DNA from: Anaerolineales bacterium
GTDB taxonomy: Bacteria; Chloroflexota; Anaerolineae; Anaerolineales; Villigracilaceae
Length of the DNA: 32,690 nucleotides
Assembly (NCBI GenBank): GCA_021462845.1
Contig: JAJTXU010000026.1
Coordinates: 1-32,690 of the forward strand
Direction: 5' to 3'
The position numbers and the translations under genes are program-made. Positions 2,132-31,846 of this stretch are shown here, piece after piece (positions within the stretch are counted from its first letter, which is position 1; each line of letters starts with the position of its first letter). The notes under the pieces are model-generated. The model did not search any database and was not told where the DNA came from. It was given only the letters and a program-made list of their open reading frames with translations.

Positions 2132-5128
2132 ATGACTAATCAAATCTCTCTTACTGTCAATGGTATTCAACATACCCTCGAAGCCAGGGCGAATGAAACG
2201 CTTTCAGATTTGCTGCGGTATCGTCTGCGGCTCACGGGGACAAAGATCGGCTGTGACGAAGCCGAGTGCGGCGCGTGTACTGTCCTCGTGGATGGCGAGC
2301 CTGTGGTCTCGTGCATTTACCCAGCCGAGCGGGCGGAGGGGAAGACGGTGGTGACGATTGAGGGATTGGGGAATGAATTTACCGCTAAGCACGCTAAGAA
2401 CGCAAAGGAGTTAGAAAAGAAAGAGGAAAGAAGAAAGAATCTTAGCGACACTTCGATAAAACTCAGTGCAAGTCTTCGCGCTCTTAGCGGTTTAAATGCT
2501 CTTCATCCCTTACAAGAAGCATTCGTGGAGCATGGCGCGGTACAGTGCGGATTTTGCATCCCTGGGCAGATTATGACGGCGTATGCGCTGCTCGAGCGGA
2601 ATCCGAATCCGACGAGGGATGAGGTGCGGTTTGCGTTGAAGGATACGCTGTGCCGTTGCGCGGGGTATCCGACGATTGAAAATGCGATTCTTGCGGCGGC
2701 AGAATCGTTGCGGACGGGTGAACCTGTCAGGAAGCCGAATATTCCCGATTCGATTCACGTTCATCAATCGGTGGGACATACGCATCGGCGACCGGATGGG
2801 ATTGAGAAAGTCAATGGTCAGGCGATATACACCGATGACCTTGTCTTCGATAACATGTTATTCGCAAAAGTAAAACGCGCGATGATTCCGCATGGGTTCT
2901 TGAAGAGACTCGATGTTTCAAAAGCCAAAGAGTTGAAAGGTGTTGTCGCCATATTAACTGCCGAAGATATTCCTGCTGAAAGGAATCATGGACTGATCGT
3001 CTACGATTGGCCCGTGATGGTGGGTGTTGGAGAACGCGTCCGCTATGTGGGGGATGCGATCGCGCTCGTAGCGGCGGAAACGCTTGAGATTGCGAATCAG
3101 GCGTCGGCGTTGATCGAAGCGGAGTTCGACCTCCAGCCTGTCATCACAAATCCCGTGATGGCGCGTGAGGATGGAGTCCCACAAATTCACGAAAAGGGAA
3201 ACTTGCTCAAGCACATCAAAGTCCGCAAGGGCGATATGGAAAAAGGATTCGCCGAGTCGGATGTGATTCTCGAACATACATTTCATACGCCGACGTATGA
3301 CCACGCGTTTATTGAGCCTGAATGTAGTATCGGCGTGCCGTTGCCCGATGGGCGCATGGAAATTTATTGCGGTTCGCAAATTCCGTATCAGGATCGAACG
3401 CAAGTGGCGCGTGTGATGGGTTGGGATGAGTCGCGCGTGCGCGTTGTGGGACAGCTGATGGGCGGAGGCTTCGGCGGCAAAGAAGATGTGATGGGACAGA
3501 TCCACGTGGCGATGCTGGCGGACGTGACGAAGCGACCAGTGAAACTGCTGTTCGACCGTCATGAAAGTTTGCTCGTGCATCCGAAGCGGCACGCGACGCA
3601 GATCCGAATCAAGATTGGCGCGAAAAAAGATGGACGCATTATGGCGAGCGAGTCTGAGCTGTATGGCGACACGGGCGCGTATGCGTCGCTCGGCGAAAAA
3701 GTGATGACCCGCGCCACCACGCACTCGGCGGGTCCGTATGATGTGCCGAATGTGCGCGCCGATTGCTACGCCATGTACACCAACAACCCGCCTGCGGGTG
3801 CGTTCCGTGGATTCGGCGTGACGCAATCGGCGTTCGCGGTCGAGTCGATGATGGATATGCTCGCCGAGAAGTTGAACATCGAGCCTGTTGAACTGCGTCG
3901 CATCAACGCGCTGCATGTCGGGAGCATCACCAACACGGGACAGGAGTTGCGCGAGTCGGTGGGATTGATGGAGTGCATTGATAAAGTGTCAAGCGCCATG
4001 TGTCAGGTTTCAGGTTTGTCGGAGAAGGATTTGTTTAAGCCGAGAGTAGTTTCTGATGTTGACGAAGTGGACTTAACCGCTAAGCACGCGAAGAGGAAAG
4101 AAGAAAGAAGAAAGAATCTTAGCGGGCTTCGCGGTCTTAGCGGTTCAAATTATCTTGTTAGAGCATGGGGCTTTGCCGCCGCTTACAAGAACACGGGTCT
4201 CGGTGGCGGCGCGCCCGATATATCCAACGCGGAAGTTGAGTTGTACGATAACGGCATGTTCGAAGTGCGGAGCTCGTCCGCCGAAATGGGGCAGGGACTC
4301 GTCACCGTCATGCGCCTCACTGTCGCGGAGGAAATGTCTGTCCCTCCTGAGCAGGTCAACGTGTTGGTGATGGATACGGATTTGACTCCGAACGGAGGTC
4401 CGACGACCGCATCGCGTCAAACGTTTGTGACGGGGAATGCCTCGCGGTATGCTGCGAAGACTTTGCGCGATGCGATTACAGCGACGCTCGCTGAAAAATA
4501 TGACGTCAAGCCTGAGCAGATTCGTTTTGAAAATGGAATCGTCCACGCCAATGGACATTCGATGACATATGCCGAAGTCGCAAAAGAAATGAAAGCGATG
4601 GGACAACATCCGCGCGCGTTGTACGAATACGAAGCGCCGAAGACTCAACCTCTTGGCACAGGCGGCGACATGCACTTCGCCTTCTCGTTCGGCGTGCAAG
4701 CCGCCGAAGTGGAAGTGAATAAGTTGACGGGCGAAGTGCGCGTGCTGAGAGTCATCTCTGCCAATGACGTGGGCATGGCGGTCAATCCGCTGGGCTTGCA
4801 GGGACAAGTCGAGGGCGGCGTGATGATGGGGCTCGGCAACGCCATCACCGAAGAATTCCTCATGGACAATGGCTATGTGGTGAGTGACCGTCTGGCGCGT
4901 TATCGCATCCCTGGGATTATGCTCACGCCTGAGATCACGTCCATTATCGTGGAGCATCCCACCGCGGCGGGACCGTATGGCGCGAAGGGAGTTGGCGAGA
5001 TATGCAGTATCCCAACCACGCCCGCGATCACGAATGCGATTTATAATGCAGTGGGTGTGAGGGTGGATAAGTTACCAGTGGATCAGGAGTCCATTGCGCG
5101 GGAGATATGGGAGAGGGAGGAGAAATAG
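2132..5128 (+). CDS. Fused [2Fe-2S] + molybdopterin-binding subunit, xanthine dehydrogenase/aldehyde oxidase family, with two apparent in-frame repeat insertions
   Basis: CDEAECGACTVLVDG and CGFCIPGQIM...CRCAGYPTIENAI cluster motifs; GGGFGGKEDV, GAFRGFGVTQ and GAKGVGEICSIPTTPAI Mo-domain motifs; 998 aa single ORF. Confidence 0.88.
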   Translation: MTNQISLTVNGIQHTLEARANETLSDLLRYRLRLTGTKIGCDEAECGACTVLVDGEPVVSCIYPAERAEGKTVVTIEGLGNEFTAKHAKNAKELEKKEERRKNLSDTSIKLSASLRALSGLNALHPLQEAFVEHGAVQCGFCIPGQIMTAYALLERNPNPTRDEVRFALKDTLCRCAGYPTIENAILAAAESLRTGEPVRKPNIPDSIHVHQSVGHTHRRPDGIEKVNGQAIYTDDLVFDNMLFAKVKRAMIPHGFLKRLDVSKAKELKGVVAILTAEDIPAERNHGLIVYDWPVMVGVGERVRYVGDAIALVAAETLEIANQASALIEAEFDLQPVITNPVMAREDGVPQIHEKGNLLKHIKVRKGDMEKGFAESDVILEHTFHTPTYDHAFIEPECSIGVPLPDGRMEIYCGSQIPYQDRTQVARVMGWDESRVRVVGQLMGGGFGGKEDVMGQIHVAMLADVTKRPVKLLFDRHESLLVHPKRHATQIRIKIGAKKDGRIMASESELYGDTGAYASLGEKVMTRATTHSAGPYDVPNVRADCYAMYTNNPPAGAFRGFGVTQSAFAVESMMDMLAEKLNIEPVELRRINALHVGSITNTGQELRESVGLMECIDKVSSAMCQVSGLSEKDLFKPRVVSDVDEVDLTAKHAKRKEERRKNLSGLRGLSGSNYLVRAWGFAAAYKNTGLGGGAPDISNAEVELYDNGMFEVRSSSAEMGQGLVTVMRLTVAEEMSVPPEQVNVLVMDTDLTPNGGPTTASRQTFVTGNASRYAAKTLRDAITATLAEKYDVKPEQIRFENGIVHANGHSMTYAEVAKEMKAMGQHPRALYEYEAPKTQPLGTGGDMHFAFSFGVQAAEVEVNKLTGEVRVLRVISANDVGMAVNPLGLQGQVEGGVMMGLGNAITEEFLMDNGYVVSDRLARYRIPGIMLTPEITSIIVEHPTAAGPYGAKGVGEICSIPTTPAITNAIYNAVGVRVDKLPVDQESIAREIWEREEK
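2379..2494 (+). repeat. In-frame palindromic repeat insertion, copy 1, in the Mo-hydroxylase ORF
   Basis: ttaccgctaagcacgctaag...cttcgcgctcttagcggttta, translated TAKHAKNAKELEKKEERRKNLSDTSIKLSASLRALSGL. Confidence 0.88.
4073..4150 (+). repeat. In-frame palindromic repeat insertion, copy 2, in the Mo-hydroxylase ORF
   Basis: ttaaccgctaagcacgcgaag...cttagcgggcttcgcggtcttagcggttcaa, translated LTAKHAKRKEERRKNLSGLRGLSGS. Confidence 0.9.
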
Positions 5129-10995: not shown

Positions 10996-11511
10996 TCATT
11001 TCAAAACTTTGGTGAAATACAAAGCCATATTGTCACCCACGATCACTTGTTCTCCGTAAACTAGAAAATGATCCTTGTAATGCAGTCCGCGCCCATCGGG
11101 GATATAGCCTCTTAACACATACATTCTTTGCGCCGCGCCATAATCGGGAGTCATGCCCACGCCGATGCCAGCCATGTCGCTGACTTTTGCAATTTCACAT
11201 TCGGCTTTCTCCATAAGCGCCGTGCCAATGCCCTGGCGGCGAAATTCTGGCAATACATTGAAATCGGTAATCTCAGGAATGTTCGCCTCTCGAAAAGGCG
11301 GATACGGCGAACTCCATTGTATCGTCAGATACCCTGCGAATTCACCCTCCACAAACGCGACATGGACATTTCGCATCCCCGATGCTTGCTCCTTGAGGTA
11401 ACGTTCATATTGGCTTGCAGGTTTATTCCAACCCAGTTTTTGGAAGGCTTCGGCAATCGTTGAAATATCCCTTTGTTCGAGAAAACGGATGAGTGGTTCA
11501 ACCTTTGGCAT
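10996..11511 (-). CDS. GNAT-family N-acetyltransferase
   Basis: EITDFNVLPEFRRQGIGTALMEKAE acetyl-CoA binding motif; ATG at 11511 (MPKVEPLIRFLEQRD) preferred over the upstream ORF start. Confidence 0.82.
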   Translation of the reverse strand: MPKVEPLIRFLEQRDISTIAEAFQKLGWNKPASQYERYLKEQASGMRNVHVAFVEGEFAGYLTIQWSSPYPPFREANIPEITDFNVLPEFRRQGIGTALMEKAECEIAKVSDMAGIGVGMTPDYGAAQRMYVLRGYIPDGRGLHYKDHFLVYGEQVIVGDNMALYFTKVLK

Positions 11512-11560
11512 GGCGCCTCCATTTCTGTGTGATTGCATTATAAATTGCGAATATAATCCC

Positions 11561-12289
11561 ATGATAGCCCGCCTCACTTTTCTCCTCCTTCTGTGTTTAA
11601 CTGCTTGCGCCGCTCCTGTACCAACCCTCGAAGAGACGACCTCCATGCCAACCATCCGTTACCTCGCGCTAGGCGACTCCTATACCATCGGCGAAAGTGT
11701 GGACGAGCCCGAACGCTGGTCCATGCAACTCGCATCCCTTATGGAATCCTCCCCCCAAATTGCGAAGCGATTTGGGGGGACTGAGGGGGGTCGGGTAGAG
11801 GTCACCATCATCGCCCGTACCGGCTGGACCGTGGACGAACTCTGGGATGGAATCCAAGCGCAGAAGATCAATCCGCCGTACGATTTGGTCTCGCTTCTGA
11901 TCGGCGTCAACAACCAATATCGCGGGCGCGACCTCGAAGAATATCGCGAGCAATTCATTTTCCTGTTGAACAAATCCATCGAGTACGCAGGCGGCGACGC
12001 GAACCGCGTCATCGTCCTATCCATCCCCGATTGGGGCGTGACTCCATTCGCAAGCGACCGCGACAGTAAGAAAATAGCGGACGAAATCAACCAATACAAT
12101 GCAGTCAACCGCGCAGAGACCGAAAAAGCAGGCGCGCATTACATTGACATCACGCCCATCTCACGCGAAGCCGTGAACGATCCGTCATTGATCGCTGGCG
12201 ATGGTCTGCACCCCTCTGGCAAAATGTACGCCGAATGGGCGAAACTTGCCCTGCCTGTTGCCTTGAAAATCCTCACCGCTGAACCCTGA
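11561..12289 (+). CDS. SGNH/GDSL hydrolase, probable lipoprotein, carrying an in-frame palindromic insertion
   Basis: Lipobox LLLCLTAC; block I ALGDSYTIG, ARTGWTVDELWDG, GVNNQYRG, GDGLHPSGKMY. Confidence 0.8.
   Translation: MIARLTFLLLLCLTACAAPVPTLEETTSMPTIRYLALGDSYTIGESVDEPERWSMQLASLMESSPQIAKRFGGTEGGRVEVTIIARTGWTVDELWDGIQAQKINPPYDLVSLLIGVNNQYRGRDLEEYREQFIFLLNKSIEYAGGDANRVIVLSIPDWGVTPFASDRDSKKIADEINQYNAVNRAETEKAGAHYIDITPISREAVNDPSLIAGDGLHPSGKMYAEWAKLALPVALKILTAEP
11748..11795 (+). repeat. In-frame palindromic insertion in the SGNH hydrolase gene
   Basis: ccccccaaattgcgaagcgatttggggggactgaggggggtcgg; CCCCCCAAAT/ATTTGGGGGG arms; translated SSPQIAKRFGGTEGGR. Confidence 0.75.
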
Positions 12290-12365
12290 TCACTGCTCAC
12301 TGATCACTGATCACTCGTAACTCGTAACATGTAACTTGCACCCTGCCCACTTTCCACTTTCCCCA
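12287..12365. repeat. Composite word-repeat array (TGATCAC / TAACTCGTAAC / CCACTTTCCACTTTCC)
   Basis: ctgatcactgctcactgatcactgatcactcgtaactcgtaacatgtaacttgcaccctgcccactttccactttcccc. Confidence 0.8.
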
Positions 12366-18217: not shown

Positions 18218-18437
18218 ATCATTAGTGGAAAGTGGAAGGTAGAAAGTAGAAAGTAGAAGGTAGCAAGCATGCCCGAGTTAAGTCGAAGGGTAGCGAGTAG
18301 AATCTACCCACCACTTTCCACTTTCTATCTCGCCCTCCTCAATCCTCTAATCCTCTAATTCTCTGCTCTTCCAGTCTCCAATCTCCAGTCTCCAATCTCT
18401 CCTCCTCATGCCCATCTCTCCCACTTCTCTAATTCTC
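18218..18437. repeat. Composite word-repeat array (GTGGAAAGTAGAAA / CCACTTTCCACTTTC / CAATCCTCTAATTCTC / CAGTCTCCAATCTC)
   Basis: Tandem quasi-periodic words read directly; runs into the start of the 18408 ORF. Confidence 0.85.
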
Positions 18438-25694: not shown

Positions 25695-25754
25695 ACGTAG
25701 TAGCGACTTCAGTCGCTTTCACGGCAAGTTGACGACTGAAGTCGTCACTACGTG
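25695..25754. repeat. Palindromic dispersed-type repeat
   Basis: cgtagtagcgacttcagtcgc...gacgactgaagtcgtcactacg. Confidence 0.8.
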
Positions 25755-30990: not shown

Positions 30991-31846
30991 ATAGTGAGTC
31001 GTATTCTACTTTCGGAAAAATCGTCAGCTTGCCTCCGACCGTCGCGTCAACCACTTCGCGCCCTGCTTTGCGATAGGCATCATGCGCAAGTGCATACCCG
31101 ATCTCGGAGGTATCCAGGTCAGGCAGTTGCCATTTCACGCCTTTGCCAAAATAATTCGGCATGAAATGATTCGGATCGTCGCCTTGCGAAACGACGGTTT
31201 TGTTCGCATCGCCTTTGTCGGCAAAATTGTGATCCACGCCGATGAGGATGGCTTTCTCGATGCCCATATGAAACGCAAGTTGGAGCGCGAGATTGGTCAC
31301 GGTCGCGCCCTCCCACACTCGCCCGCGGACATCTCTTGCAAAGCGAGGTCCTGTGTAGGTGGTGTAGATGAAGGTTGGGAGAGAAGAGATTGGAGATTGG
31401 AGACTGGAGACTGAGCGCTCGAGAATTGGAGGATTAGAGAATTGGGATTTAAAATGTTGGCGTGATCGCCAGGCGATGAATTTTGGGATGGTCAGCGCGG
31501 AGATGTCGTTTACGAATTGCTCGACGACGAGATCGTTCGTCACGCAGAGGTAGGATGTGGTGAATCCCCATTCGGGGAACGCGAGATAGATTCGGTTCAT
31601 GCCGAAGGTGATCTCGTTCTTCAATTTGCTCGTGTCGGTCTGCTTGAGGCTGGGACCGTTGCCGATGATGAAGGCGCGTTTCTCCTTGTGGATATTTTTC
31701 ATTTCGGCAAGCCGGCGAATACTTTCCCTGCGCCACGGATGCAAGTAGGCGGCGGGCAATTCAGGCACACGTCGGAGCGAATCGTATGCATCCCGTGTGA
31801 AACGCCAAAGCGATTGTGGAATCAACGATTTGAGAGTTTGTTTCAT
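30986..31846 (-). CDS. DUF115 / MptE-like glycosyltransferase-type protein with an in-frame word-repeat insertion
   Basis: RAFIIGNGPSLKQTDTSKLKNEITFGMNRIYLAFPEWGFTTSYLCVTNDLV; GRVWEGATVTNLALQLAFHMGIEKAILIGVDHNFADKG. Start ATG at 31846 (MKQTLKSLIPQSLWRF). Confidence 0.75.
   Translation of the reverse strand: MKQTLKSLIPQSLWRFTRDAYDSLRRVPELPAAYLHPWRRESIRRLAEMKNIHKEKRAFIIGNGPSLKQTDTSKLKNEITFGMNRIYLAFPEWGFTTSYLCVTNDLVVEQFVNDISALTIPKFIAWRSRQHFKSQFSNPPILERSVSSLQSPISSLPTFIYTTYTGPRFARDVRGRVWEGATVTNLALQLAFHMGIEKAILIGVDHNFADKGDANKTVVSQGDDPNHFMPNYFGKGVKWQLPDLDTSEIGYALAHDAYRKAGREVVDATVGGKLTIFPKVEYDSLF
31378..31452 (-). repeat. In-frame word-repeat array inside the DUF115 CDS
   Basis: Minus strand aatcccaattctctaatcctccaattctcgagcgctcagtctccagtctccaatctccaatctcttctc; same words as 18340-18402. 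Confidence 0.85.

Follow-up and report, generated by a model that had tools for sequence, protein, structure and literature searches.

Protein-coding palindromes are best known from Rickettsia, and selfish DNA in protein genes has been largely a curiosity of reduced genomes. Y1 transposases are thought to move REPs, which are short hairpins. Palindromic elements inside the protein genes of Rickettsia are established (Ogata et al. 2000, 2002, via PMC10969869), and according to that review these RPEs are about 150 bp long and encode a conserved peptide. Intragenic GTAG/CGTC REPs were described in 2013 (PMC3733652). These repeats are mostly intergenic, but some lie in repair and tRNA-related ORFs, including those of tRNA synthetases, and different REPs occupy about the same recB site in two Xanthomonas species (PMC3733652). 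Miniature repeats of the REPIN/MITE type are non-autonomous, palindromic and dispersed, with occasional intragenic copies (PMC3116915, PMC2229807).

Here we compare with these systems a palindrome that is read in frame within a hydrolase gene of an Anaerolineales genome. The palindrome lies in a stretch of 32,690 nucleotides that was analysed as a whole and is called the window below. We consider it likely that the palindrome belongs to a class-wide, non-autonomous palindromic repeat family left by past insertions, whose in-frame copies in permissive surface loops survived as linkers. Within the open-access literature we found no description of this C6-stem-G6 family, no account of comparable inserts in Anaerolineae or of families repeatedly exchanged at one site, and nothing relevant on palindromic in-frame insertions or MITEs in Chloroflexi.

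The hydrolase palindrome and its site among relatives

The ORF at 11489-12289 of the window matches GDSL/SGNH hydrolases (domain profile PF13472, E = 1.9e-20). This is the mechanical ORF; the likely start listed in Table 1 was picked from the signal peptide. The hairpin with its tail lies in frame at 11750-11790 and reads in full TCCCCCC-AAATTGC-GAA-GCGATTT-GGGGGGA, then CTGAGGGGGG. Its 14-bp arms are 93% complementary around a loop of 3 nt. Folded as single-stranded DNA, it reaches -13.9 kcal/mol (z = -3.8), and none of 200 shuffles was as good. At three or fewer mismatches, no chance copies of the palindrome are expected in the window. On the strength of the folding shuffles, the mismatch expectation and the reversed controls described below, we rejected a chance origin. 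An intrinsic terminator was rejected because the hairpin has no T run and is embedded in a conserved domain whose homology continues to its left and right, and an assembly artefact because the palindrome is common to three separate genomes.

Table 1. Positions in the window of the hydrolase gene, its palindrome and a second repeat insert
Feature	Position	Strand	Basis
SGNH/GDSL hydrolase gene with lipoprotein-type signal MIARLTFLLLLCLTAC	11561..12289	+	PF13472 match; homologues in relatives
C6-stem-G6 hairpin: TCCCCCCAAATTGC / GAA / GCGATTTGGGGGGA	11750..11780	.	Folding, family matches
Conserved G-rich tail CTGAGGGGGG	11781..11790	+	Tail shared by distant genomes whose stems differ
Translated insert SSPQIAKRFGGTEGGR, residues 87-102	11747..11794	+	Absent from most homologues
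CTTAGCG/CTTCGCG repeat insert in molybdenum-hydroxylase gene 2132-5128	2375..2510	+	Flanks VVTIEGL...LHPLQEAF, shared with the G014 orthologue

The insert lengthens by about 11 residues the loop that joins helix 1 to the following strand. In the predicted structure (mean pLDDT 88), this loop runs between helix 77-86 and strand 102-109, and the block 91-100 has the lowest confidence inside the folded part (pLDDT 76). The palindrome is predicted to be translated as an extra surface loop. The first-pass annotation had placed a palindrome in frame in an SGNH hydrolase, and this is borne out by the sequence, the PF13472 match and the folding (z = -3.8). The insert that it put at 11748-11795 is also present, with its codons one base further left, at 11747-11794. 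Its expectation that such hydrolases usually pass from helix to strand within a few residues agrees with the homologues without the insert, which reach the VEVT strand 10-11 residues sooner. It had proposed an alignment with exactly such homologues; they exist, the sister lineage G012 among them, and the protein studied here has about 11 residues extra. When we looked for homologues that have the peptide but no palindrome, every homologue found with an intact peptide also had the DNA palindrome.

A homologue of the hydrolase is encoded in 26 of the 61 genomes searched, our own included. Three genus members carry the palindrome: G000 (this genome), G010 and G013, the last two with nearly the same peptide and the palindrome TCCCCCCAAATTGCTTCGCAATTTGGGGGGA(T/C)(T/C)GAGGGGGG. 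Shorter or decayed inserts lie at the same place in G005, G007, G008 and G025, those of G005 and G007 (loci L013 and L012) being decayed remnants. The hydrolases of G012, G001, G003, G009 and most others lead directly from helix to strand and are 10-11 residues shorter. In a nucleotide tree built with the element columns excluded, the three intact copies form one clade (100/99), and the sister G012 is without the element (92/86). The junction is blurred, with an element of 41 bp and a net gain of 30-33 bp. Rather than being fresh, the insertion may predate the divergence of several genus members.

Between G010 and G013 the palindrome is identical over 30 nt although 17% of the flanking sites differ (P about 0.003); fourfold-site divergence between the two genes is 39%. 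This identity is compatible with selection, a young insert or renewed insertion. The core is AAATTGC-GAA-GCGATTT in the window copy and AAATTGC-TTC-GCAATTT in G010 and G013. Inverting the 17-nt core lowers the differences between G000 and the other two from 5 to 2, suggesting that the hairpin core was probably flipped in place. The remnant in G005, TCCCACCAACTTACGAAATCGATTGGGGG, shows the GAA form, and these few sequences hint that GAA may be the older state of the core.

A C6-stem-G6 family across the class

The exact palindrome occurs once in its own genome and, in the genus, only in the orthologous hydrolase gene. Besides it, this genome has just a single C6..G6 hairpin whose AAAT stem is related (G000:C279:18882). 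We rejected the unique, gene-specific hairpin that this exact search implied, because a free core combined with the fixed C6/G6 frame and tail revealed a family. Using the pattern TCCCCCCN{3,30}GGGGGGAN{3,6}AGGGGGG, in which the core is free, we found the frame TCCCCCC-(variable stem)-GGGGGGA..GAGGGGGG in 15 of 18 genus genomes, and the reversed control gave 0 matches. Across the class, 115 of 396 genomes have the family, with up to 133 matches per genome (71+62) compared to 0-3 in the control; these counts are pattern matches summed over forward and reverse, so a symmetrical copy can count twice. The possibility raised in the first-pass annotation that the palindrome is unique in its genome is thus literally true of the exact palindrome but not of the family, as other genomes reveal. 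The intergenic copies that it suggested seeking were not found for the exact palindrome in its own genome, and the family came to light only via other genomes.

The family consensus is GCTTCCCCCC-stem-GGGGGGAYTGAGGGGGG, with the outer frame often extended on the left by CCCCCCTC. Elements measure about 40-60 bp, and the window element 41 bp. In distant genomes the form is TCCCCCC-core-GGGGGGA(C/T)TGAGGGGGG, and the core is often near-uniform within a genome but differs between genomes. The same tail accompanies other stems there, as in TCCCCCC-TAGCA-GGGGGGACTGAGGGGGG and TCCCCCC-GTTGAC-GGGGGGATTGAGGGGGG. The GGGGGGA and tail CTGAGGGGGG of the window copy correspond to this class-wide ending. 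Family elements are read in several reading frames and in both orientations. Among genus cores of equal length, 96% of cells are paired and compensatory changes are present. Core covariation was 0.172 compared to 0.053 in shuffles, of which 0 of 500 were as high, and sliding the partner lowered it. Pairs were counted on equal-length cores only; a mixed-length MAFFT alignment was out of register and was left out.

We then compared the positions of family hairpins with genes called on the fetched stretches by a simple hexamer-based caller. In the genus loci, 42 of 46 family hairpins lie wholly inside a called gene, and 27 of 30 distinct sites are in frame inside genes when orthologous sites are grouped by hand. 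By comparison, of 109 strong hairpins outside the family in 800 kb of G012 and G014, only 14 fall within genes (Fisher p = 2e-15), a contrast that is against terminators and REP-like repeats. Compared with the coding fraction of 82-87%, 27/30 is no enrichment (binomial p = 0.6), and there is therefore no evidence of targeting to genes. By these gene calls, most surviving genus copies are predicted to be translated. The same 27/30 does not fit easily with a purge of out-of-frame hits, unless copies between genes disappear more quickly.

The host proteins include LeuS (in its editing domain), ValS, AlaS, RlmN, an Elp3-like radical SAM enzyme, HemD, mevalonate kinase, lipoate ligase, CinA, a PcrA-like helicase and an amidohydrolase. 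Many copies fall within the domain or model match of the host, and homologues that lack the insert can be aligned across both of its flanks for the SGNH hydrolase, for AlaS (G006) and for RlmN (G012 and G017). We do not regard confinement to genes as a family trait, since distant high-copy genomes hold copies mostly between genes (11 of 14 sampled copies in G394 and 8 of 10 in G217) and since 27/30 stays within the coding fraction; in G331, 4 of 10 copies are intergenic.

Several other repeats were observed in the window and in relatives. A further palindrome family, GTAGGGGCGACCCGNCGGGTCGCCCCTAC, tagged with GTAG and lying mostly between genes, occurs in G012 (loci L072-L091), with 16 motif matches in 400 kb; it is absent from the G014 sample. 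In G000:C279, near 2980 (L129), a composite hairpin holds a GACGAACTTCAGTC palindrome inside CCCCCCAAAT...ATTTGGGGGG, and a similar composite occurs in G002 (L121); in both, one palindrome may be nested in another. An intergenic inverted repeat at 25695-25753 of the window (ACGTAGTAGCGACTTCAGTCG...CGACTGAAGTCGTCACTACGT, arms of 21 nt, 90% complementary) has a ACTTCAGTC core in common with these composites. Low-complexity intergenic runs (TGATCACT/CGTAAC, GTAGAAAGT and CCAGTCTCCAATCTC) lie at 12290-12350, 18225-18400 and 31370-31445 of the window, some of them reappearing inverted elsewhere in it.

Gene sites that hold different palindromes

In AlaS, palindromes occupy a site between GGQVDDTGYIRS and WEIEVT. 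The C6-stem-G6 element is present there in G013, G002 and G005, and in G014 and G008 it lies in the other orientation with an extra GTCCCGAAGGGAC hairpin. The site holds CCCTCTCCC..GGGAGAGGG with a GGTGAGGG flank in G011, G015, G007 and G004, GGCAGTTCAACTGCC palindromes or near relatives in G017, G010, G012, G009 and G000 (this genome), and GAGCGGAGC-like motifs in G001, G016 and G003. It is empty in G006. On a tree built without the insert columns, the five AlaS states need 9 changes where the least possible is 4. Both the C6-G6 and the CCCTCTCCC state must have changed several times, given the branches with good support. Copies of the CCCTCTCCC family are dispersed, numbering 9 and 6 in two stretches of 400 kb where 0 are expected. 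When dispersal of the GGCAGTTCAACTGCC palindrome was sought, it was found only in AlaS among the loci examined, and we therefore count it as a palindrome and not as a proven repeat family. AlaS also has a second palindrome-bearing region at about query residues 717-729, with (G)GCAGTTCAACTGC(C) palindromes (L278 in G013, L295 in G000, and L279), so that as many as three palindromic inserts are found in this single essential gene.

Two further sites are shared. The RlmN site before RRTLCIS carries C6-G6 elements in G014, G008 and G001. In G007 and G005 it is occupied by a repeat that matches the window's CTTAGCG/CTTCGCG family; the best alignment scores are 34 and 57, where shuffles reach at most 24 and 23. 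At exactly the position of the CTTAGCG/CTTCGCG insert in the molybdenum-hydroxylase gene (Table 1), the 78% identical orthologue in G014 has a C6-G6 element (locus L113). The CTTAGCG/CTTCGCG and C6-stem-G6 families are unrelated. The molybdenum-hydroxylase ORF contains a second in-frame CTTAGCG/CTTCGCG inverted repeat at 4070-4160, and the G014 orthologue has other inserts at both CTTAGCG places.

The first-pass annotation had proposed that in-frame tolerance is not specific to one element. The AlaS, RlmN and molybdenum-hydroxylase sites, which hold different families in frame, support this proposal, and tolerance of unrelated palindrome families holds more widely than was stated. A stronger idea is that certain surface loops of essential proteins in this genus act as exchange sites, where unrelated palindromes replace one another in frame over species divergence because a resident palindrome draws in the next one or recombines with it. 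We put this forward only tentatively and think it rather unlikely. If it were true, palindromic repeats would be a standing source of loop variation in proteins.

Origin of the copies and comparison with known elements

In the origin that we favour, the palindrome is one copy of a short non-autonomous repeat with a constant frame, TCCCCCC...GGGGGGA(Y)TGAGGGGGG, around a variable base-paired core. Comparison of sequences establishes the family, its structure, its in-frame position in known genes, its presence and absence among relatives and the different families at shared sites. Copies would have entered the chromosome in the past, as we infer by insertion of a mobile element. Gene-breaking insertions would have been lost and in-frame copies in permissive loops would remain, translated as short linkers that the protein tolerates but does not need. 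We likewise infer that the inserts are neutral. The remaining copies would decay slowly and sometimes flip, and the same permissive loop could be hit again, leaving different palindrome families at one place in different species. No insertion event was observed directly; a clean empty/filled pair of near-identical strains was not found, and target-site duplications were not visible at the SGNH or AlaS sites.

The paired stems could instead reflect selection on the hairpin, either as an mRNA structure that pauses translation at the loop or through the loop peptide, in which case the palindromes at a site would be functional replacements of each other. This would account for an AlaS site that keeps its structure while the sequence is swapped, for an SGNH palindrome that G010 and G013 share without a difference over 30 nt despite 39% fourfold-site divergence, and for the compensatory changes in stems. 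However, most SGNH and RlmN homologues and the AlaS of G006 manage without an insert, G005 and G007 have decayed remnants, and the host proteins are unrelated. All donor families are palindromic, moreover, so replacement of palindrome by palindrome needs no selection, and we regard this explanation as quite unlikely. Formation in place, by C/G runs and replication template switching that build and correct hairpins in unconstrained loops with no mobile element, would explain why stems differ between sites yet stay paired. The G000 core, which is the inverse of the G010/G013 core (GAA compared to TTC loop), likewise fits a template switch or a flipped hairpin. What local formation cannot give is the dozens to >100 matches to the frame and tail GGGGGGAYTGAGGGGGG that distant genomes contain, each genome having just one core or a few. 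We consider it very unlikely as an origin, but template switching may reshape copies after arrival.

A further alternative is that the copies are ordinary GTAG/CGTC REP elements moved by a RAYT (a Y1 tyrosine transposase). Their size, hairpin form, asymmetrical tail, intergenic abundance (G394, G217) and intragenic cases resemble REPs (PMC3733652), and Y1 proteins are encoded in G217, G118, G331 and genus genomes. On the other hand, the Y1 domain was not found in three of the highest-copy genomes, G394 (94% complete), G180 (94%) and G245 (85%), and the RAYT route is therefore not supported, though assembly incompleteness leaves room. No GTAG/CGTC tag lies next to the stem; some copies have GTAG, but only beyond the outer run of G, and none is present at the window element. 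The genus, furthermore, has a separate GTAG-tagged palindrome, GTAGGGGCGACCC..GGGTCGCCCCTAC. We regard ordinary REPs as a highly improbable source.

The phenomenon of palindromes in protein genes here extends to a large class of uncultured bacteria whose genomes are of ordinary size, with a family that appears new and with several families at shared gene sites. At one position, many species can be compared as to whether an insert is present, absent, decayed, inverted or replaced. Such comparison makes it testable whether the inserts are neutral passengers, by which route they enter and whether loops once entered are entered again. The inserts would also explain odd proline/glycine-rich linkers in predicted Anaerolineae proteins.

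Compared with known systems, the family resembles the RPEs and the protein-coding palindromes of Wolbachia in placing in-frame palindromic repeats in unrelated genes, where they encode extra peptides, and in having both genic and intergenic copies. It differs from RPEs as the review PMC10969869 describes them (~150 bp, conserved peptide) in its size of ~40-60 bp, its constant C6/G6 frame and variable core, its reading in several frames and both orientations, and its occurrence in Anaerolineae. By a comparison of descriptions, the element is not a Rickettsia RPE proper: the hosts are MAGs of Anaerolineales / Ca. Villigracilaceae, and the element is 41 bp long and read in several frames. Like GTAG/CGTC REPs, the elements are short hairpins with some copies inside ORFs, including those of tRNA synthetases, but they have no stem-adjacent tag and no Y1 in three of the highest-copy genomes, and genus copies are mostly intragenic. 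Like REPIN/MITE repeats, the family is non-autonomous, palindromic, dispersed and sometimes intragenic; unlike them, it has no visible target-site duplication, and the Y1 search found no parent transposon. Compared with a MITE, the hairpin itself is the inverted repeat. The kind of element is thus known; what appears to be new is this family, its occurrence in the phylum and the repeated exchange of families at sites in common.
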